The position numbers and the translations under genes were made by a program. From Bacteroidales bacterium (GTDB lineage: Bacteria; Bacteroidota; Bacteroidia; Bacteroidales; UBA932): 64,000 nt of DNA. The stretch is taken from contig JAMPAT010000004.1 in the NCBI GenBank assembly GCA_023667095.1, positions 62,001 through 126,000 of the forward strand, written 5' to 3'. The notes beneath the pieces were generated by a model. That model saw only the letters and a list, made by a program, of their open reading frames with translations, made no database searches and was not told where the DNA came from. This document shows, one piece after another, positions 11,241 through 19,992 of the stretch (the first letter of the stretch is position 1; every line of letters starts with the position of its first letter).

Positions 11241-12488
11241 CTATTCGACCAGCCTTGTGGCGAAGTTCCAGTCAAGAGTCCTGTAGTAATTGTCCAGATA
11301 TGCCCCGCCGTTACACGGAAGATACATGCTCATCCCCCCGAAACGCCTTATTGCAAAGCCTGGGTATGGATTGTCCGGATTGTTGGCAAGGAATGTATCG
11401 GTTGCAGCCTTGTATACGACACATCTGTCAAATGCCAGATGGAATCTCTCCAGCTCTGCCTCTGTGCATCCGAGGTTCTCCACAATGTCGCAGAGGTCGT
11501 AGAACCAGTGGTAATTATACGTGTAGTATTGCTGAATGCTGCTGAATGGAAGGCCGTCCAGTGCCTCCCTGTGACCAGCGAAGATGCGGGAGAGCTCTAT
11601 TGCAAGGTTTGCGACAGCAGAAAGGTCTATCAGTGAAATTGTAGCAGACCTGTACGCTCCGCTCTGGACATCATATATGCTGTAGTAGCTCTTGCAAAGT
11701 TCCTCAAGCCTTGTCTGCAAGTTTACGGATGAGAATAGATGCCTGGTCATTTCCCTGTAGTTCATTCCGTCGGAGAGTATCTCTGCCGGTGAGGCCACGA
11801 GGTAGTGTGCCTTGTTGCGAAGCTGGCACGAAACTTCTGCCCCACCCATAAGGCATGCATCGAATATCAGATAGTCAAGCCTGAAAGGAATGGCGTCTGC
11901 AAAATCCCTGATGTCAATCTCGTGCGATTCCCTGAGGTCTGTCTCCTGTCCGATAGACTTCTGTACGCTGCCCAGTCCTGCGCTGTAGCCATTTTCGTAT
12001 CTTGACGAATTTGAATAGTAGTATTCAGGCAGGAAGCCTGTCCCGTGAGACGAGAAGAGAAGTCCATATTCATCTGCCGGGAAATTCTCCTTTGCATATT
12101 CGAGTACATTCCTCAAAGTCTCTGCCGAGGCGGAATGCGTTCCAGCAGGATATGTTACAAGGGTGTCCATTACAACCTTTCCTTTGTTGTGGTATGCCCT
12201 TATTATATAGGATGGTGCCTGGGTCGAACTGCTGTATCTGTTCAGATGAGAGTATATCAGCAATGTGTTGTTGTCTGTGAATGGTGCCTGGACCATGTCC
12301 CTGATGTTTCCTGCAATCGAGCCTGCAAGGTTGTTGCTTCCTGCTGTATAGAATACGAATACCCTCCTGGCTGTGTCCTGCTCCTGCACAACCGGTTTTT
12401 CGCATGAATGCAGCATTGCAAGTGCCATGGCTGCAAGAACCGCCGCCATCCACCTGGCTGATAATATATGTTTTCTATATTTTCGCAT
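11241..12488 (-). CDS. Clostripain-family (C11) cysteine peptidase lipoprotein
   Basis: 415 residues. The N terminus has a basic n-region, a hydrophobic core and LHSC, giving lipidated Cys29. The caspase-fold dyad is visible: His148 in LLFSSHGTGF and Cys212 in LIFDACLMGG. C11 peptidases of gut Bacteroidales cleave after basic residues and some activate toxins. No cognate substrate gene is adjacent. A TATTTTTG box lies at 12500-12493, very close to the ATG at 12488, so the true start could be a later Met (12449), although that would remove the basic n-region. Confidence 0.9.
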   Translation of the reverse strand: MRKYRKHILSARWMAAVLAAMALAMLHSCEKPVVQEQDTARRVFVFYTAGSNNLAGSIAGNIRDMVQAPFTDNNTLLIYSHLNRYSSSTQAPSYIIRAYHNKGKVVMDTLVTYPAGTHSASAETLRNVLEYAKENFPADEYGLLFSSHGTGFLPEYYYSNSSRYENGYSAGLGSVQKSIGQETDLRESHEIDIRDFADAIPFRLDYLIFDACLMGGAEVSCQLRNKAHYLVASPAEILSDGMNYREMTRHLFSSVNLQTRLEELCKSYYSIYDVQSGAYRSATISLIDLSAVANLAIELSRIFAGHREALDGLPFSSIQQYYTYNYHWFYDLCDIVENLGCTEAELERFHLAFDRCVVYKAATDTFLANNPDNPYPGFAIRRFGGMSMYLPCNGGAYLDNYYRTLDWNFATRLVE

Positions 12489-12614: not shown

Positions 12615-13490
12615 TCATTTTTCGTCTTTCTTTTTAGGAAGTTTTGCAGAAGTCTTTTCTATCTTCTTTTCATTGGAGGCCACTCTACGCTCCACTTTCT
12701 TAATGTCCTCTGCTGGTGGAAGCTCTTCGGGACGTATGCCTCTTTGACCGAGCATTTGGCGGACACTTTGGTTGTTGTCCATGTGCTCACGTGTTATAGG
12801 CATCTCGCCATGAAGGTCTTTTTGCTCCACGTTATAGTTGGTCATTTCGGTGGCGAGGTTTTTGGCTGCAATAGTCAGTGTCGGCAGGAAGTCGGCCAAT
12901 GGTCGCGTAGACTTTATGCCGAGCCTCTGCTTCATATCCTCTGTGGTATGCCCACCGAACAGGACAGTGTCTCCCTTTGAGCGGATGCGTCCGAAGCCTC
13001 TGTCGTCAACGCCACGTTCGTAGATGTTGCGTGACAGCTGCTTTTCCGATGCCCGCAGCCGGTCGCGGGTCTCAAGGCGCGACAGTTGCTGGAGATGCTC
13101 TGCTATCAGCTCCGCACGGCGCGTCTGCACGGCGAAATATCCTTGTGCAAAGGCAATCTCTTCTTTCTTCGGGTCACCGTTTTGAGCAATCAGATAACAC
13201 GCATAGCGGGTGAGCATGAAGTCTTGAACTTCGCGTTGTCCACCTTTTCCGATAGTTATCATTTTCGTGACCTCACGAAAATGATCATCAACGCTGATAT
13301 TCTGCGTTTTACAGGACTCTACCGCACGGGTTATAGCTACTTGGAAATTTTCCCAACGGCTATAGCCAAGCACGGCTTGCAATTCGCGTGCAAACCATAC
13401 TTCTATTTTGTCGGAACCGTCTTCGCTTTCGATGTATCTGCAAATATCATCGAAAGATTGCTTATGTTGTGTTATTCGTTGCAAATCCAT
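12615..13490 (-). CDS. dinD: DNA damage-inducible protein D (DinD)
   Basis: 291 residues with the DinD/BRO-N-like N-terminal domain (ICRYIESEDGSDKIEVWFAREL, GYSRWENF) and the conserved segment FMLTRYACYLIAQNGDP. The C terminus is a long Lys/Glu-rich tail, KKDEK at the end. In E. coli DinD inhibits RecA filaments. In Bacteroidales, dinD genes are often embedded in type I restriction loci beside hsdS and a tyrosine recombinase, which is the context here. The promoter box TATCTTTG (13519-13512) is enclosed by a 12-bp inverted repeat. Confidence 0.9.
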   Translation of the reverse strand: MDLQRITQHKQSFDDICRYIESEDGSDKIEVWFARELQAVLGYSRWENFQVAITRAVESCKTQNISVDDHFREVTKMITIGKGGQREVQDFMLTRYACYLIAQNGDPKKEEIAFAQGYFAVQTRRAELIAEHLQQLSRLETRDRLRASEKQLSRNIYERGVDDRGFGRIRSKGDTVLFGGHTTEDMKQRLGIKSTRPLADFLPTLTIAAKNLATEMTNYNVEQKDLHGEMPITREHMDNNQSVRQMLGQRGIRPEELPPAEDIKKVERRVASNEKKIEKTSAKLPKKKDEK

Positions 13491-13494
13491 CGTT

Positions 13495-13541
13495 TATCGC
13501 ATTTTGGACTACAAAGATACTTTTTTTTGCAAAATGCGATA
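13495..13541. repeat. 12-bp inverted repeat enclosing the dinD promoter
   Basis: TATCGCATTTTG (13495-13506) and CAAAATGCGATA (13530-13541) are perfect inverted copies separated by 23 bp. The interval contains TATCTTTG (13519-13512, minus), the likely dinD -7 box; the predicted start of transcription falls in or next to the left arm. This could be an operator or a recombination site. Confidence 0.6.
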
Positions 13542-13546
13542 AGATG

Positions 13547-14543
13547 TCACCCTAAATATTTCTTATGGGCGATTTTGACATTATTTTGATTGACTATCGC
13601 ATAATGGAGAGTTGTATCAATGCGAACATGCCCGAGCAGACGCTGCACTTGCTCAATAGGCATTCCCTTGTCAATCGCCATTGTTGCCAATGTGCGACGG
13701 AACTTGTGCGGATGTACTTTGGGAAGATCCAGCCGGCGGCCCATCTTTCGGATACGAACTTCTATACCACCTATTGTCAGCCGGTTGTGCGGAGCAGACA
13801 GAGAAACGAACAAAGCAGGATTTTCATCAGTCCGTTCATTCAGATACTGTTGAAGGTGCAGTTTAGTGCGGGCATTAAAATAAACTATACGTTCCTTATT
13901 TCCTTTGCCGAAGACAATGCATTGCCTTTCATGGAAATCAATATCCGTCCGGTTTAGCTTCACTAGTTCTCCGACACGGATGCCCGTTGATGCAAGAATA
14001 TCAATTATAGCTAAGTCACGCCTATTTGTGCAGTTGTCACGTAGCAGTTCTAGCTGTTCATCGCTCAATACCTCCTTTACAAGGGAATCCGTCTTCACCT
14101 TGTGAATCCTCCGGACAGGGCTTTTAGCTATATAGTCCTCATCTTCCAGCCATGCAAAGAAACTTGAAAATATGCGTCTCATGTTATCAATTGTCACTTT
14201 GCTTGATTTGTGGTTCTCTTGATATTCTGAGAGATAGGTACGGATGTCTGATGTCGTGATATGGCATATATATCGCCAGAGAAAGCGTAAACAGTAGCCG
14301 TTCAATGGTATTGCGATAGTATGTCAATGTCTTGTCTGAGCACCCCTCTATTTTCTTTGCTGATATAAAAGAATTCAGCAGTTGATTATTCTCTTGTGTA
14401 TGCAGAGTTGAACATTCTGCCTTTTCTATGATTTTTACATTCTGCAGTTCTGATGCAAGCACAGCCTTAAGCCGTGCCATTTGTCGGCAGTCTAAGTCAC
14501 ACTGCATTTCCGCAACTATCGCCTGAATGATGTTATCTTTCAT
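13547..14543 (-). pseudogene. Tyrosine recombinase, frameshifted in a TA run
   Basis: Two overlapping frames together make one phage-integrase family protein. The first (14543-14187) carries the N-terminal SAM-like core-binding region up to DKTLTYYRNTIERLL. The second (down to 13547) continues with CHITTSDIRTYLSEYQ and holds the catalytic domain: Arg in STGIRVGELVKL, HKFRRTLATMAIDKG, LLGHVRIDTTLHY with the nucleophile Tyr. Frames switch at an ATATATAT run (14266-14273). One extra TA there would restore a continuous reading frame. The catalytic half is intact. Short recombinases of this type invert hsdS or surface-gene DNA in Bacteroidales. A real slip, phase-variable tract or sequencing error are all possible. 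Confidence 0.8.
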
Positions 14544-14589
14544 AATTCTGGTATTTTTTCATTAATATATGATAAAGGATTAAAGCTGC

Positions 14590-14603
14590 TAAATCAGAAT
14601 TTA
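14590..14603 (+). repeat. Left inverted-repeat arm, candidate recombination site
   Basis: TAAATCAGAATTTA. An exact reverse-complement copy is at 17744-17757, inside the hsdS conserved codons. It lies 46 bp upstream of the recombinase start. Match extends weakly to the left (G[CT]TG[CT]). Confidence 0.65.
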
Positions 14604-14608
14604 CGTGC

Positions 14609-14660
14609 AAGCCGAGCGCAGAGCCAAACGCAGTTTGAGCCATGCCGAGGCGCAGCCGTA
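14609..14660 (+). repeat. Interspersed repeat, copy A
   Basis: Contains GCCGAGCGCAGAG, AAACGCAGTTT and ATGCCGAGGCGCAG in order. A diverged copy in the same orientation occurs at 17918-17965. Immediately right (14663-14688) is a hairpin GCCGGAC...GTCCGGC. The 14544-14905 gap otherwise holds only the left repeat arm and the promoter for the next gene. Confidence 0.6.
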
Positions 14661-14876
14661 AATGCCGGACTGAGGACGAAGTCCGGCAGGACGGAATTTA
14701 ACGCAATATAAACGAGCATGAATACATAATTTTCTCAGTTGAAGTCTGAATGGAATATTTATTACACGAAGGATGAATCGCATGGCTTCACTATAAGTTT
14801 GCGGATCAAGTGAACTTTAGACAAACTTTTAGCGAACTTTTGAAATGATTATGGCTGTTATGTGAAGAATTAATGT

Positions 14877-14884
14877 TATGTTTG
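14877..14884 (+). promoter_or_regulatory. Promoter -7 box of the AlbA-type gene
   Basis: TATGTTTG fits TAnnTTTG and is 22 bp before the ATG at 14906, which supports that start over the ATG at 14873. Confidence 0.5.
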
Positions 14885-14905
14885 CGAAGTCTAAATCACA
14901 AAAGT

Positions 14906-16273
14906 ATGTTGACTGAAAAAGATATAAGGGAGTTGGTACATGGCGGAGAAGGCTTCAATGTAGATTTCAAGCGTAGCGTGCCCTCAAAAGTTCGCGATAT
15001 AGCAGAGGAGGTATGCAGTTTCGCCAACTCTGCCGGAGGATACGTGTTGATTGGCGTGGACAATGGCAATCAGATTATCGGTGCAGAGATAGACAACAAC
15101 AGACGCTCAGCCATTCAGGATGCCATAGGTGAAATTTCACCAATGCTTCATTACGATATGTACCATGTGGAGGTGGATGGTAGGAGAGTCTGGGTAATTG
15201 ATGTCCCATCAGGCAAAAGCAAACCTTATTTCTTTTCGGGTTCGACCTATATACGCGAAGGAGCGAACTGTCAGAAACTGACCAATGTTGATGAAATCCG
15301 TAATGTTTTCCAGAAAAACGACCGTATCTATTTCGACGCGATACCACTTCCGAAAGTGGATTTGGGTAAAGAACTAGACGAAGAAAATTTTCGGGAATTC
15401 CGATATGCTGCCGGTATAGCCATGGACATCGGTGATGGACAGATATTGGAGAACATGCAAATCTATGACGATAATGACAATGTAAAAAGCGGCGGGGTGC
15501 TGTTCTTTGCCAGACATCCCGAAAATATTTATTTCCACGCAGTAATCCGCTGTGTATTGTTCAAAGGCACGGATAAAGTCTACATTTTGGATGACAAGAC
15601 CTTTGGCGGTCCTCTGCTTCAACAGTACAAAAGAGCGGTTGAATGGCTGAAAAGTAAATTGAAGGTCGCATACGAAATGGAGGGGACAGGGCCGAGAAAA
15701 GAGACCTGGGAAATTCCGTTAAGTGTGTTTAAGGAATCTATAATCAATGCGCTGTCACACCGCGATTACTATGAGCAGGGTGCAAGCATTATGATAGAAA
15801 TGTATGATGACCGTATTGAGATTAGCAATCCAGGAGATTTGCTGCCAGTGGTGGCAAAGAATTTCGGTCGTAAAAGTCTTTCCCGTAATCCGCTGATTTT
15901 TGGTTTGTTTACCCGTATGCACCTGGTTGAACATGTCGGTTCAGGTATTCCTCGAATGAAAAAGGATATGCTTGATGCCGGATTGCCTGAACCAATCTTT
16001 GAAACAGAGGGGATGTTTACCGTAATTTTCAAACGTCCTGCTGCAATGCAGGCAATAAAGGAGCAAGCCAAAGACTTTCAACTTACAGAAATACAGCGTG
16101 AAATATTGTCTGCCATCACAGATAAGCCTAACATAACGATGGATGAGCTCGGTGCGATGCTCAATCTTGGACGCTCCTCGATATACAAGAATCTGAAACA
16201 ACTGAAAGAACAAAGTATTTTAATGCGCGAAGGACGTAAAAGAGATGGCAGGTGGGTTATCAAACAGGTTTAG
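14906..16273 (+). CDS. AlbA/schlafen-type putative DNA-binding regulator with GHKL-like domain
   Basis: 455 residues. The N-terminal AlbA_2 (schlafen-like) domain includes EGFNVDFKRSV and SFANSAGGYVLIGVDN (about residues 15-53). The middle has an ATPase-like region, ESIINALSHRDYYEQ followed by DRIEISNPGDLLP and EHVGSGIPRMKKDM. The last 60 residues form a winged helix-turn-helix (ITMDELGAMLNLGRSSIYKNLKQL). This architecture was once annotated as RecG-like; it is common in mobile and restriction loci, role unknown. It lies within the interval bounded by the 14-bp inverted repeats and converges on the DUF2971 gene (9-nt gap). Confidence 0.85.
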   Translation: MLTEKDIRELVHGGEGFNVDFKRSVPSKVRDIAEEVCSFANSAGGYVLIGVDNGNQIIGAEIDNNRRSAIQDAIGEISPMLHYDMYHVEVDGRRVWVIDVPSGKSKPYFFSGSTYIREGANCQKLTNVDEIRNVFQKNDRIYFDAIPLPKVDLGKELDEENFREFRYAAGIAMDIGDGQILENMQIYDDNDNVKSGGVLFFARHPENIYFHAVIRCVLFKGTDKVYILDDKTFGGPLLQQYKRAVEWLKSKLKVAYEMEGTGPRKETWEIPLSVFKESIINALSHRDYYEQGASIMIEMYDDRIEISNPGDLLPVVAKNFGRKSLSRNPLIFGLFTRMHLVEHVGSGIPRMKKDMLDAGLPEPIFETEGMFTVIFKRPAAMQAIKEQAKDFQLTEIQREILSAITDKPNITMDELGAMLNLGRSSIYKNLKQLKEQSILMREGRKRDGRWVIKQV

Positions 16274-16282
16274 ATTGCATTG

Positions 16283-17053
16283 TCAAATAATTGCAGGGAG
16301 TAATCTAAAGGAATTCTCATCTACTGCCATTTGATATAACTTGATTTGCGGATTTAGTTCCTTCCGAACATATTGAATAATTTTTTCTTTTTCAGTTTGT
16401 TCTACATTGATTCCAAAATAGATTGAGTCAAAACTCTCTTTTTTCAGTGGCAAATAATGGTGTATTTCACGCCAATCCCACATCTCCTTATTCTGCTTCG
16501 CTTGTTGAGGAGTAAAGGCTGCATACATAGGACTTGGTTTTGGCATGACTAATCTTACTTCGTGTTCGTATTCCCAATCTTTTGCTTTTGTCCCCCATTG
16601 GTAGCTATATCTGTCATTTACACTATCATATGCGTTTGGACGATCTATTATATCCTGATATTGAACATCAATAATTATCGGTTTATTATATATTGCACCG
16701 AACATCGGTGGAACAGATTCCATTACTTTATCTATGTCAAGGCCAATACAAACACCTTTGTGATTATAGCAATAATGACTCCACATAAGTAATGAATCAT
16801 AAACTTTAGATAAACTACATAGCCAAGTCCCGTTGCGTAAATTGAGAGCATCGTTTTCTTCTTTTTTTATCCACCAGTCCTTTGGTACCCATCCCTGGAG
16901 TTGAGAATCAGGTACATCCGAGTAGTCAATTAATTTAGGATGACAATCGAAAGGATCGTTCAGTTGAGACGCATTGGTGAATTGGAGATTCTGGTTTCCA
17001 ATCATGCACTTTGCGCCAACTATATCTAAATATTTGTAGAGTATGCGAGACAT
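16283..17053 (-). CDS. DUF2971 protein
   Basis: 256 residues. Family hallmarks are LYKYLDIVG at the N terminus, FTNASQLNDPFDCHP and LLMWSHYCYNHKGVCIGLD, with conserved His, Tyr and Cys residues. Function is not known; the family is often found among defence and mobile genes. Base composition is visibly more AT-rich than the surrounding core genes. It starts 3 nt after the hsdS fragment stops, so it would be translated from the same transcript. Confidence 0.8.
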   Translation of the reverse strand: MSRILYKYLDIVGAKCMIGNQNLQFTNASQLNDPFDCHPKLIDYSDVPDSQLQGWVPKDWWIKKEENDALNLRNGTWLCSLSKVYDSLLMWSHYCYNHKGVCIGLDIDKVMESVPPMFGAIYNKPIIIDVQYQDIIDRPNAYDSVNDRYSYQWGTKAKDWEYEHEVRLVMPKPSPMYAAFTPQQAKQNKEMWDWREIHHYLPLKKESFDSIYFGINVEQTEKEKIIQYVRKELNPQIKLYQMAVDENSFRLLPAII

Positions 17054-17056
17054 TTT

Positions 17057-17776
17057 TTATTCTATCGTTATTTGTCCATTCATTAAAAGTGGTAAAAGTT
17101 CGTCACGCTGCTTAGTGAGGTAAGTTATCTCATTTCGATTCGTTACAATCATTGATAGCATTGAATCTAATTCTTCTCTCACCTTTTTTATTGGACAAAC
17201 TAATACATATAGTTCTTTCATATCCTTGTCTGAAAGATGTCCAACAGTTGAACCTTTTGCTCTTATCTCTTTCGCCTTTATATACGGCTCTATGTCATAT
17301 TTTGCTTGAACAATTGACACGTTAGAGTTATTCTTAGCTCGTAGCCTAACACTTCGTTGGTTAAGGTATGATACATTATCTGTCCAGTAGTTTATGTGAA
17401 AATTTCCGTCCATACCAATTAGCAAATCTTGTTTTTGAAGCAAATATCTTTCTTCTACTTTTTCAGTAGTATAAGCAGAAATAGAATTACTAAGAATATC
17501 TCTAATACGAACAACAGGTACAGACGTCACCTGCTCGGCAAACAATTCGGTCGAGAATGGAAAGCCATATTGAAGCTCTATCTCGTCTGCTAATTTTGCA
17601 ACATTCCACCCCTTTGGTATTTCACGTTTCAGTTTTTCACTCCATACCATTTTGTCACCGCTTGACTTATATGGTTTGCCTTCCTCATTCGGAAAGTCAA
17701 ACTGCACAAACCAGTAGTCATATAGCTGTTTCGCCATCGCCTCTAAATTCTGATTTAACAACCATCCCCATCCCAT
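17057..17776 (-). pseudogene. hsdS: Type I restriction specificity subunit, 3' half only
   Basis: The segment begins at the HsdS central conserved region (LNQNLEAMAKQLYDYW, then FVQFDFPNEEGKPY and KLKREIPKGW). It continues through one target-recognition domain (about residues 65-190 of the fragment) and ends with the C-terminal conserved helix (TYLTKQRDELLPLLMNGQI). The N-terminal target-recognition domain is missing: upstream of NQNLE the reading frame no longer resembles HsdS. The homology break coincides with the inverted-repeat arm at 17744-17757. No hsdM or hsdR is in the window. It may be a silent cassette or a relic. An ATG at 17776 could start a 239-residue product. Confidence 0.85.
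17744..17757 (-). repeat. Right inverted-repeat arm inside hsdS conserved region
   Basis: Reverse complement of TAAATCAGAATTTA at 14590-14603. On the coding strand it encodes the L-N-Q-N-L codons at the start of the HsdS central conserved region, the point where this hsdS copy loses homology. Confidence 0.65.
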
Positions 17777-17864
17777 TCTGCAACATGTAATAGGACAGGT
17801 GGCAGGACAGAAATAAATTGGAGCATGAAGCGGGAAAAACAGGACAGGGTATTCTATAAGTTCG

Positions 17865-17872
17865 TATCTTTG
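17865..17872 (+). promoter_or_regulatory. Promoter -7 box upstream of the second M49 gene
   Basis: TATCTTTG, a perfect TAnnTTTG box, giving a leader of about 108 nt that includes repeat copy B. Confidence 0.5.
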
Positions 17873-17917
17873 CACTCCGGAAGAATATGTGAAACAATGA
17901 TTATATAATAAACGATT

Positions 17918-17965
17918 AAGCTGAGGGCAGAGGAAACGTAGTTTTACTATGCCGAGGTGGAGTGA
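17918..17965 (+). repeat. Interspersed repeat, copy B
   Basis: AAGCTGAGGGCAGAG, AAACGTAGTTT, ATGCCGAGGTGGAG in the same order and orientation as copy A (14609-14660), with point differences. It ends 20 bp before the M49 start codon. The two copies bracket the AlbA-DUF2971-hsdS segment. Confidence 0.55.
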
Positions 17966-17985
17966 TTGTAAACGAAGTTTAAAAT

Positions 17986-19992
17986 ATGAAGACGATTGCA
18001 AAAATGCTTGTTTTGGGAAGTACTGCTGCGGCATTGGCCGCGTGCGGCAACGCTCCTGCGGAGCCTGCCGGTGATTTCAGGTATCTGGTCGACGAATTTG
18101 CCGACCTCAAGATAATGCGCTATCAGATCCCTGGCTGGGATTCGCTTACATTGCGCCAGAAAGAATATGTGTACCACCTCGGTGAGGCTGCAAAATATGG
18201 CCGTGACATACTCTGGGCGCAGAACTGCAGGTATAACCTTCCGATAAGGAAGAGCGTAGAGAATATCCTCAATAACTATAAAGGGGACAGGGAGTGCAAG
18301 GATTTCCAGGACTTTACTGTATATGCCAAGAGGCTGTTTTTCAGCAATGGAATCCACCACCATTACGCAGAGGACAAATTCTTCCCTGAGTGTCCGCGTG
18401 AATATTTCCAGTCCCTTATGGAGGCTGTCGGGGATGCAGATGCCTGTGCAGAGCTGCTTCCTGCCATATATGATCCGCAGGTCTATCCGCAGAGGAAGTC
18501 TACCGATGCATCCGCTGATATCGTAGCTGAATCTGCCGTCACATTCTATGAAGGTGTGACACGTGCTGAAGTCGAGGCTTTCTATGACGCCATGATGGAT
18601 CCTTCAGATGAACGGCCTGTATCATACGGGCTCAACAGCAGGGTAGTGAAGGATAGCGACGGGACCATACGTGAGGAAGTCTATAGGGCAGACGGCCTGT
18701 ATGGTGCAGCAATCTCTAAAATTGTCGCGGAGCTGGAAAAGGCGGCGGAATTTGCCGAAAGCGATGAGCAGAGGAGATGCATAGAGCTTCTTGTTGCATA
18801 TTACAGGACAGGTGACCTGAAGCTATGGGATGAATACAATATCGCCTGGGCACAGGAGACTGCAGGAACGGTGGATTTTGTAAACGGATTCATCGAGGAC
18901 TACAATGACCCTCTCGGGCGCAAGGCTTCCTGGGAGTCGCTTGTCAATATCAAGGACCATGAGGCTTCGGAGCGTACCGAGGTGCTCAGCGCGAATGCCC
19001 AGTGGTTCGAGGACCATTCTCCTGTAGACCCCCGTTTCAGGAAAAAGGAGGTGAAGGGAGTTTCTGCAAAGGTGATCAATGCAACGACACTTGGCGGAGA
19101 CTGCTATCCTGCAACCCCGATTGGTGTGAATCTCCCGAATGCGGACTGGATCAGGAAAGAATACGGCTCAAAGTCAGTGACCATTGCCAATATAACGCAT
19201 GCATACGAGCTTGCGGCGCTTGAGTCGCCAAAGAGCATACTCAATGAGTTCGCGTGGGATGAAGAGGAGATTGCAAGGGCAAAGAAATACCTTTCCGTTA
19301 CCGATGAGGTGCACACGGACTTGCACGAATGTCTCGGACATGGCTCCGGACAGCTGCTCCCTGGTGTACCTGCAGGTGCGCTCGGGGAATTCAGCTCGAC
19401 TCTTGAGGAGACCCGTGCCGACCTGTTCGGCCTGTACTACATGGCTGATCCGAAACTTGTCGAACTTGGCATATTGCCTGATGTAGAGGCATACAAGGCA
19501 ATGTATGACAATTACATAAAGAACGGAATCTTTGTCCAGTTCAACCGCGTGGAGCTTGGACGCAAGAATACGGAGGCACACATGCAGAACCGCAAGCTTA
19601 TCGCTGAATGGTGCTATGAGAAAGGCCTTGAGGGCAATGTGATAGAGAAGCGTTCACGCGAGGGAAAGACATATTTCGTTGTGAATGACTACCAGGCTCT
19701 CCGCGGACTTTTCGGTGAACTTCTTGCAGAAATCCAGCGCATCAAGTCTGAAGGTGACTACAAGGCAGGAAAGCAGATTGTAGAGAAATATGCTGTCGAC
19801 ATTGACCAGGACCTGCACCGGGAGGTGAGGGAACGCTATGCGTCCCTCGGGCTTAAGCCATACGGCGGGTTCATCAATCCTGAGATTGTTCCTGTAAAGA
19901 AATTCGGCAGGATAGTGGACTACAGGGTAGAATATCCGTCCGGCTTCCTCGGCCAGATGCTTGAATACGGCAGGAAATATTCCACATTGTAG
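17986..19992 (+). CDS. Dipeptidyl peptidase III-like M49 lipoprotein
   Basis: 668 residues. MKTIAKMLVLGSTAAALAAC is a lipoprotein signal with Cys20. The zinc site is canonical for M49: HECLGH (447-452) and EETRAD (474-479). DPP III enzymes remove dipeptides from the N termini of short peptides. Envelope anchoring suggests peptide use in the periplasm or at the surface. xerD follows 17 nt downstream and is probably co-transcribed. It differs from the M49 protein at 1983 in motif spacing and length, so the two are distant paralogues. Confidence 0.92.
   Translation: MKTIAKMLVLGSTAAALAACGNAPAEPAGDFRYLVDEFADLKIMRYQIPGWDSLTLRQKEYVYHLGEAAKYGRDILWAQNCRYNLPIRKSVENILNNYKGDRECKDFQDFTVYAKRLFFSNGIHHHYAEDKFFPECPREYFQSLMEAVGDADACAELLPAIYDPQVYPQRKSTDASADIVAESAVTFYEGVTRAEVEAFYDAMMDPSDERPVSYGLNSRVVKDSDGTIREEVYRADGLYGAAISKIVAELEKAAEFAESDEQRRCIELLVAYYRTGDLKLWDEYNIAWAQETAGTVDFVNGFIEDYNDPLGRKASWESLVNIKDHEASERTEVLSANAQWFEDHSPVDPRFRKKEVKGVSAKVINATTLGGDCYPATPIGVNLPNADWIRKEYGSKSVTIANITHAYELAALESPKSILNEFAWDEEEIARAKKYLSVTDEVHTDLHECLGHGSGQLLPGVPAGALGEFSSTLEETRADLFGLYYMADPKLVELGILPDVEAYKAMYDNYIKNGIFVQFNRVELGRKNTEAHMQNRKLIAEWCYEKGLEGNVIEKRSREGKTYFVVNDYQALRGLFGELLAEIQRIKSEGDYKAGKQIVEKYAVDIDQDLHREVRERYASLGLKPYGGFINPEIVPVKKFGRIVDYRVEYPSGFLGQMLEYGRKYSTL

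Follow-up and report, generated by a model that had tools for sequence, protein, structure and literature searches.

Gene content of the locus

The locus lies in a 64-kb window, by which we refer to the whole stretch of DNA that was analysed, and comprises a Bro-N gene, a tyrosine recombinase gene and a cassette with one half of an hsdS gene, the cassette being bounded by two exact 14-bp inverted repeats designated sites a and b (Table 1). Exact-match searching placed TAAATCAGAATTTA and its reverse complement at the positions given in the preliminary description of this DNA, and returned no third exact copy in the 64-kb window or in the 3.33 Mb genome. Site b is separated from the recombinase ATG at 14543 by the 46 bp claimed there, and site a lies, again as described, at codons of the central conserved region of HsdS, LNQNLEAMAKQLYDYWFVQFDFP, in which it encodes L-N-Q-N-L; relatives hold the site at the same codons. 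The pair can be extended to 17 nt at 94%. The segment from a to b is 3168 bp in length and carries, according to Pfam, an AlbA-type gene, a DUF2971 gene and the C-terminal half (C-half) of hsdS, consistent with the 3.17 kb and three genes reported before. The C-half was listed as part of an ORF at 17057-18034, of which the upstream extension is artificial.

Table 1 Coordinates of the features of the hsdS cassette locus in the window
Feature	Position	Strand	Composition or matches
Bro-N (DinD-like) accessory gene	12615..13490	-	Pfam Bro-N; PADLOC candidate PDC-S13
Tyrosine recombinase gene, hsdS-invertase family, frameshifted	13547..14543	-	Phage_integrase PF00589 (Pfam, at 13547-14305)
Site b, recombinase-proximal crossover site	14590..14603	+	TAAATCAGAATTTA (TAAAT / CAGA / ATTTA); exact match
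AlbA_2 / ATPase / winged-helix gene	14873..16273	+	Pfam SLFN_AlbA_2, HATPase_c_4, HTH_24
DUF2971 gene	16283..17053	-	Pfam PF11185; PADLOC candidate PDC-S31
hsdS C-half (central conserved region, TRD2, tail LLMNGQITIE)	17057..17757	-	Methylase_S
Site a, distal crossover site	17744..17757	-	Codons LNQNL; reverse complement of TAAATCAGAATTTA, exact match

A homologous recombinase indeed lies beside site b, as the preliminary description had it, but its frame is split by a 4-bp insertion that had been overlooked. The N part (14187-14543) and the C part (13547-14305) are in two frames, and DNA alignment with five relatives located the 4 extra bases around 14266-14274, within an AT run. The C part, which is catalytic, is an open frame of 252 aa with 90% aa identity to the recombinases of two related loci, L040 and L041, to which the N part is 76-79% identical. 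Judged from these alignments, the recombinase was probably broken recently, barring an assembly error. No second close recombinase was found in this genome. The Bro-N gene has a homologue with 87% aa identity directly after the recombinase of another related locus, L207.

Two related intergenic elements with a common AAACGNAGTTT...ATGCCGAGG core were observed at 14604-14690 and 17905-17988, upstream of the AlbA-type gene and of an M49 peptidase gene, respectively. The first folds far better than shuffled sequences (z -4.9). Comparable stretches are found repeatedly across the genus, and G000:C9:75340-75663 contains several of them; neither element matched an Rfam family, the Rfam matches in the window being tRNAs only. 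At sites a and b themselves, no signal of a folded RNA was detected beyond the shuffled controls.

Conservation of the repeats as crossover sites

The 14-bp length of the repeats is by itself weak evidence and not significant. In local Markov simulations, exact 14-bp inverted pairs within 6 kb numbered 2.6 on average per 64-kb window, and about 4.5% of the simulations of the 3.5-kb region contained one or more such pairs. Two more long-distance 14-bp inverted pairs are present in the window. Such a background would suit a functionless, AT-rich repeat arisen by chance, but the position, orientation and sequence of both copies are conserved in relatives, together with the flank on the recombinase side. 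The probability of coincidence is practically negligible, and this explanation was dismissed on the strength of that conservation. We regard a and b as real crossover sites because homologous loci keep them, not because of their length.

GTDB genomes were scanned with the recombinase of the window, giving 80 loci with a total of 1.28 Mb, in which the pattern TAAAT-N4-ATTTA was found at 170 sites against 8.8 expected. The same spacer recurs in at least two sites in 43 of the 44 loci with two or more sites, and a site lies no more than 400 bp upstream of the recombinase in 24 loci. In six loci among the closest (L039-L041 and L043-L045), between two and six copies of the identical 14-mer are present, located next to the start of the recombinase and at the hsdS (I/L)NQNLE codons; other loci keep the arms TAAAT and ATTTA and have a different spacer. 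Conservation beside recombinases and within hsdS of relatives, on which the preliminary description had made its reading depend, was thus found, either as the identical 14-mer or as the general pattern. Taken alone, the 14-mer occurs at least once in 92 of 393 Bacteroidales genomes, mostly unpaired, a count that is uninformative. No copy of the whole locus was returned by DNA search among 200 congeners, viral contigs gave no match to the 19-nt C-half site pattern, and plasmids gave only partial recombinase or hsdS matches.

The usual layout consists of four alternating inverted sites in the order a, a C-half of ~700 bp, b, the recombinase and an N-half, c, another C-half of ~700 bp, and d. Intact relatives possess the four sites, the recombinase, two N-halves, two C-halves, hsdM and hsdR. 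In these loci the tyrosine recombinase would act at four 14-bp sites, with arms TAAAT/ATTTA and a locus-specific 4-nt spacer, and flipping of the C-half cassettes would swap the target recognition domains (TRDs) of the expressed hsdS.

Tandem hsdS loci with two spacer classes were also observed (L027, L057, L059, L060, L081, L086, L090, L095 and L114), with a TCTC or TCCC spacer at the hsdS starts, where it overlaps the ATG, and GATA, CATA or CGCA at the centres. In these loci the spacer may serve as an address that holds N- and C-halves in register. For the pneumococcal tvr locus, too, direct repeats of two types have been described (PMC6265443).

Orientation of the cassette relative to relatives

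Alignment with L041 from Parabacteroides distasonis placed window positions 13551-14603, from the recombinase through the final base of the 14-mer, on the opposite strand, versus the same strand for 16287-17113 (DUF2971 and the hsdS tail, 84%) and 17625-17760 (the hsdS central region). Site b and the recombinase-side flank are collinear with L041, L204 and L207, and blastn homology stops at site b; at site a, it is the homology of the hsdS conserved region to relatives that stops. By this comparison, the 14590-17757 segment and its counterparts in L041 and L204 are inverted with respect to each other, the breakpoints lying at the 14-mers. The cassette of the window reads toward the recombinase, and in L041 and L204 it reads the other way. 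Over window positions 12633 to 14604, through Bro-N, the recombinase and the site, L207 is collinear, and its C-half is oriented as in the window. The claim that the arrangement has the geometry of an hsdS inversion system, with a crossover site inside the conserved region, is therefore borne out by the sites of the relatives and by the relative inversion.

The outer flank beyond site a is common to L041, L204, L207 and L040, so that one kind of element occurs with its cassette in both orientations. Both orientations of the segment were seen between species, the comparison including one strain of the species of the window. In L040, L041 and L207 the shared outer flank adjoins mobilization-type genes, suggesting a mobilizable element as the vehicle of the inversion system.

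TRDs and cargo behind the shared outer flank differ among L041, L204 and L207, and vary likewise when L040 is included, indicating that cassettes move between backgrounds, and so the orientation in the window could be an imported one. According to this alternative, no inversion ever took place in this lineage, and the cassette arrived as it now stands, by transfer or by homologous exchange between related loci. Against it, the breakpoints fall at the recombination sites, and relatives commonly show either orientation, with 11 loci having the a-b C-half directed away from the recombinase and 9 having it directed toward the recombinase. We consider import unlikely on balance; inversion, on the preferred reading, would have been made by the recombinase of the window.

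Missing parts and present activity

Sites a and b, the frameshifted recombinase gene, the Bro-N gene and one C-half cassette remain in the window. Short inverted sites, one of them built into the hsdS conserved region, are thus in place, and absent from the locus are the N-half, the c-d cassette, the third and fourth sites, a full hsdS, hsdM and hsdR. HsdS switching calls for at least two N- or C-halves, and a single C-half is present. The genome contains no separate HsdM, its N6_Mtase matches being confined to a fused N6_Mtase and Methylase_S protein of 847 aa on contig C5 (G000:C5:32713-36213, L002), which is also the only other Methylase_S protein in the genome. Nor does it contain a full HsdR, HSDR_N being represented by one weak, partial match on C4.

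In L207, Bro-N is followed by a silent N-half ending at the third site, versus a chromosomal gene at 11241-12488 in the window. In related species (L160-L162), this gene lies immediately next to the M49 peptidase gene (17986-19992), so the DNA from Bro-N through the hsdS half is extra sequence in the window. The missing parts presumably once belonged to the locus, and both their loss here and their never having arrived are compatible with the data.

The preliminary description had implied a working system, namely live hsdS phase variation in which 14590-17757 still flips and switches HsdS specificity. Sites a and b are intact and identical, and the catalytic part of the recombinase is open over 252 aa, as such a system would need. 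However, the recombinase carries the 4-bp frameshift and has no close second copy to replace it, the HsdM and HsdR complement is lacking, and, with an N-half at neither end, neither orientation of the segment is predicted to yield a complete hsdS. An active system is highly improbable and was rejected for want of an intact recombinase, hsdM and an N-half; the implication also failed on the silent N-half, full hsdS, hsdR and third and fourth sites. The system is probably dead here because of the recombinase frameshift, the absence of matching hsdM and hsdR, and the absence of a full hsdS in either orientation, and flipping would no longer occur.

Cargo of the cassette

The unusual part of the locus is a candidate defence gene carried within a flipping hsdS cassette. 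The a-b cassette measures 570-760 bp in most intact loci and 1496 bp in L041 and L204, where the additional length is due to a DUF2971 gene after the C-half. The DUF2971 gene of the window likewise follows the hsdS half directly, and its homologue in L041 and L204 has 78% aa identity and the same place. The AlbA-type gene is extra cargo, absent from the cassettes of L041 and L204. In a separate locus, L205:8276-10345, a DUF2971 gene (73%) comes immediately after a full hsdS with a site variant, TAAATCGGAATTTA, and hsdM lies upstream of this hsdS; no recombinase was found within the 18 kb examined. Phage DUF2971 proteins were distant relatives only.

Coupling of DUF2971 expression to hsdS orientation would be plausible. 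That invertible hsdS C-half cassettes can carry other defence genes, with DUF2971 expression being switched together with HsdS specificity, is a tentative proposal that we hold with considerable doubt. A different proposal is that the cassette switches the DUF2971 and AlbA-type cargo on and off, rather than hsdS. The position of DUF2971 inside the cassette, directly after the C-half in the window, L041 and L204, and the defence-type domains of both cargo genes are in line with this. However, the recombinase of the window is broken, no outside promoter reading into either cassette end was identified in the window, and the AlbA-type gene has a long upstream region of its own inside the cassette, making a cargo switch very unlikely.

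Comparison with known systems and interpretation

A close described counterpart is SsuCC20p of Streptococcus suis, with two identical sets of 14-bp repeats, TAAATCATCATTTA/TAAATGATGATTTA; there, xerD deletion fixes the hsdS allele, so that shuffling needs the recombinase of the locus (PMC10790761). The recombinase of S. suis 10581 (L097) shares 73% aa identity with that of the window, its 14-bp sites are of the same form, and the locus has the four-site layout. The two differ in the spacer, CATC versus CAGA in the window. SsuCC20p possesses hsdM and hsdR together with four TRDs and a functional XerD, compared to a single TRD, two sites and a recombinase that is broken in the window. L041 (P. 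distasonis NM39_I3) and L204 resemble the locus in sequence, with the identical 14-mer, 90% aa identity in the recombinase C part and a cassette of C-half and DUF2971 (78% aa), and differ in the opposite cassette orientation, the intact recombinase and the lack of an AlbA-type gene. L041 has all four sites, an N-half, a full hsdS, hsdM and hsdR, unlike the window.

Two other systems resemble the locus in mechanism. In pneumococcus, PsrA inverts a segment between 15-bp hsdS repeats (PMC4948785); the cod/SpnIII locus is similar in that a tyrosine recombinase inverts DNA between short repeats in hsdS, and it differs in having long repeats as well (85 and 298 bp) and a complete restriction-modification (RM) locus (PMC4948785). 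The shufflons of Bacteroides fragilis, also in Bacteroidales, rearrange hsdS and have inverted repeats and a neighbouring tyrosine integrase, but the quoted repeat is 38 bp long and of another sequence, and several HsdS combinations are encoded (PMC3090145).

Taken together, the locus is likely a decayed remnant, probably frozen, of an SsuCC20p-type (PsrA/XerD-type) type I RM locus that shuffled hsdS by inversion. A once-active locus of this type would have been reduced to the present remnant, leaving the a-b cassette in one orientation. Against this interpretation, the frameshift could be an assembly error, and the differing TRDs and cargo behind one outer flank would also suit import of the cassette. 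The mechanism and the form of the sites are already published, and the window is a new, degenerate member; what is added is how widely the site pattern occurs, and the cassette with cargo, neither of which was found in the limited literature examined.

The repeat, insignificant by its length, was proved real through homology, and the comparison provides a sequence rule for such loci in Bacteroidota and Firmicutes, TAAAT-N4-ATTTA, in which every locus has a spacer of its own. The locus would show the decay of an hsdS-shuffling system whose remaining sites still record orientation and, if the proposed coupling is true, a candidate defence gene borne on the cassette would tie its own expression to methylation specificity.
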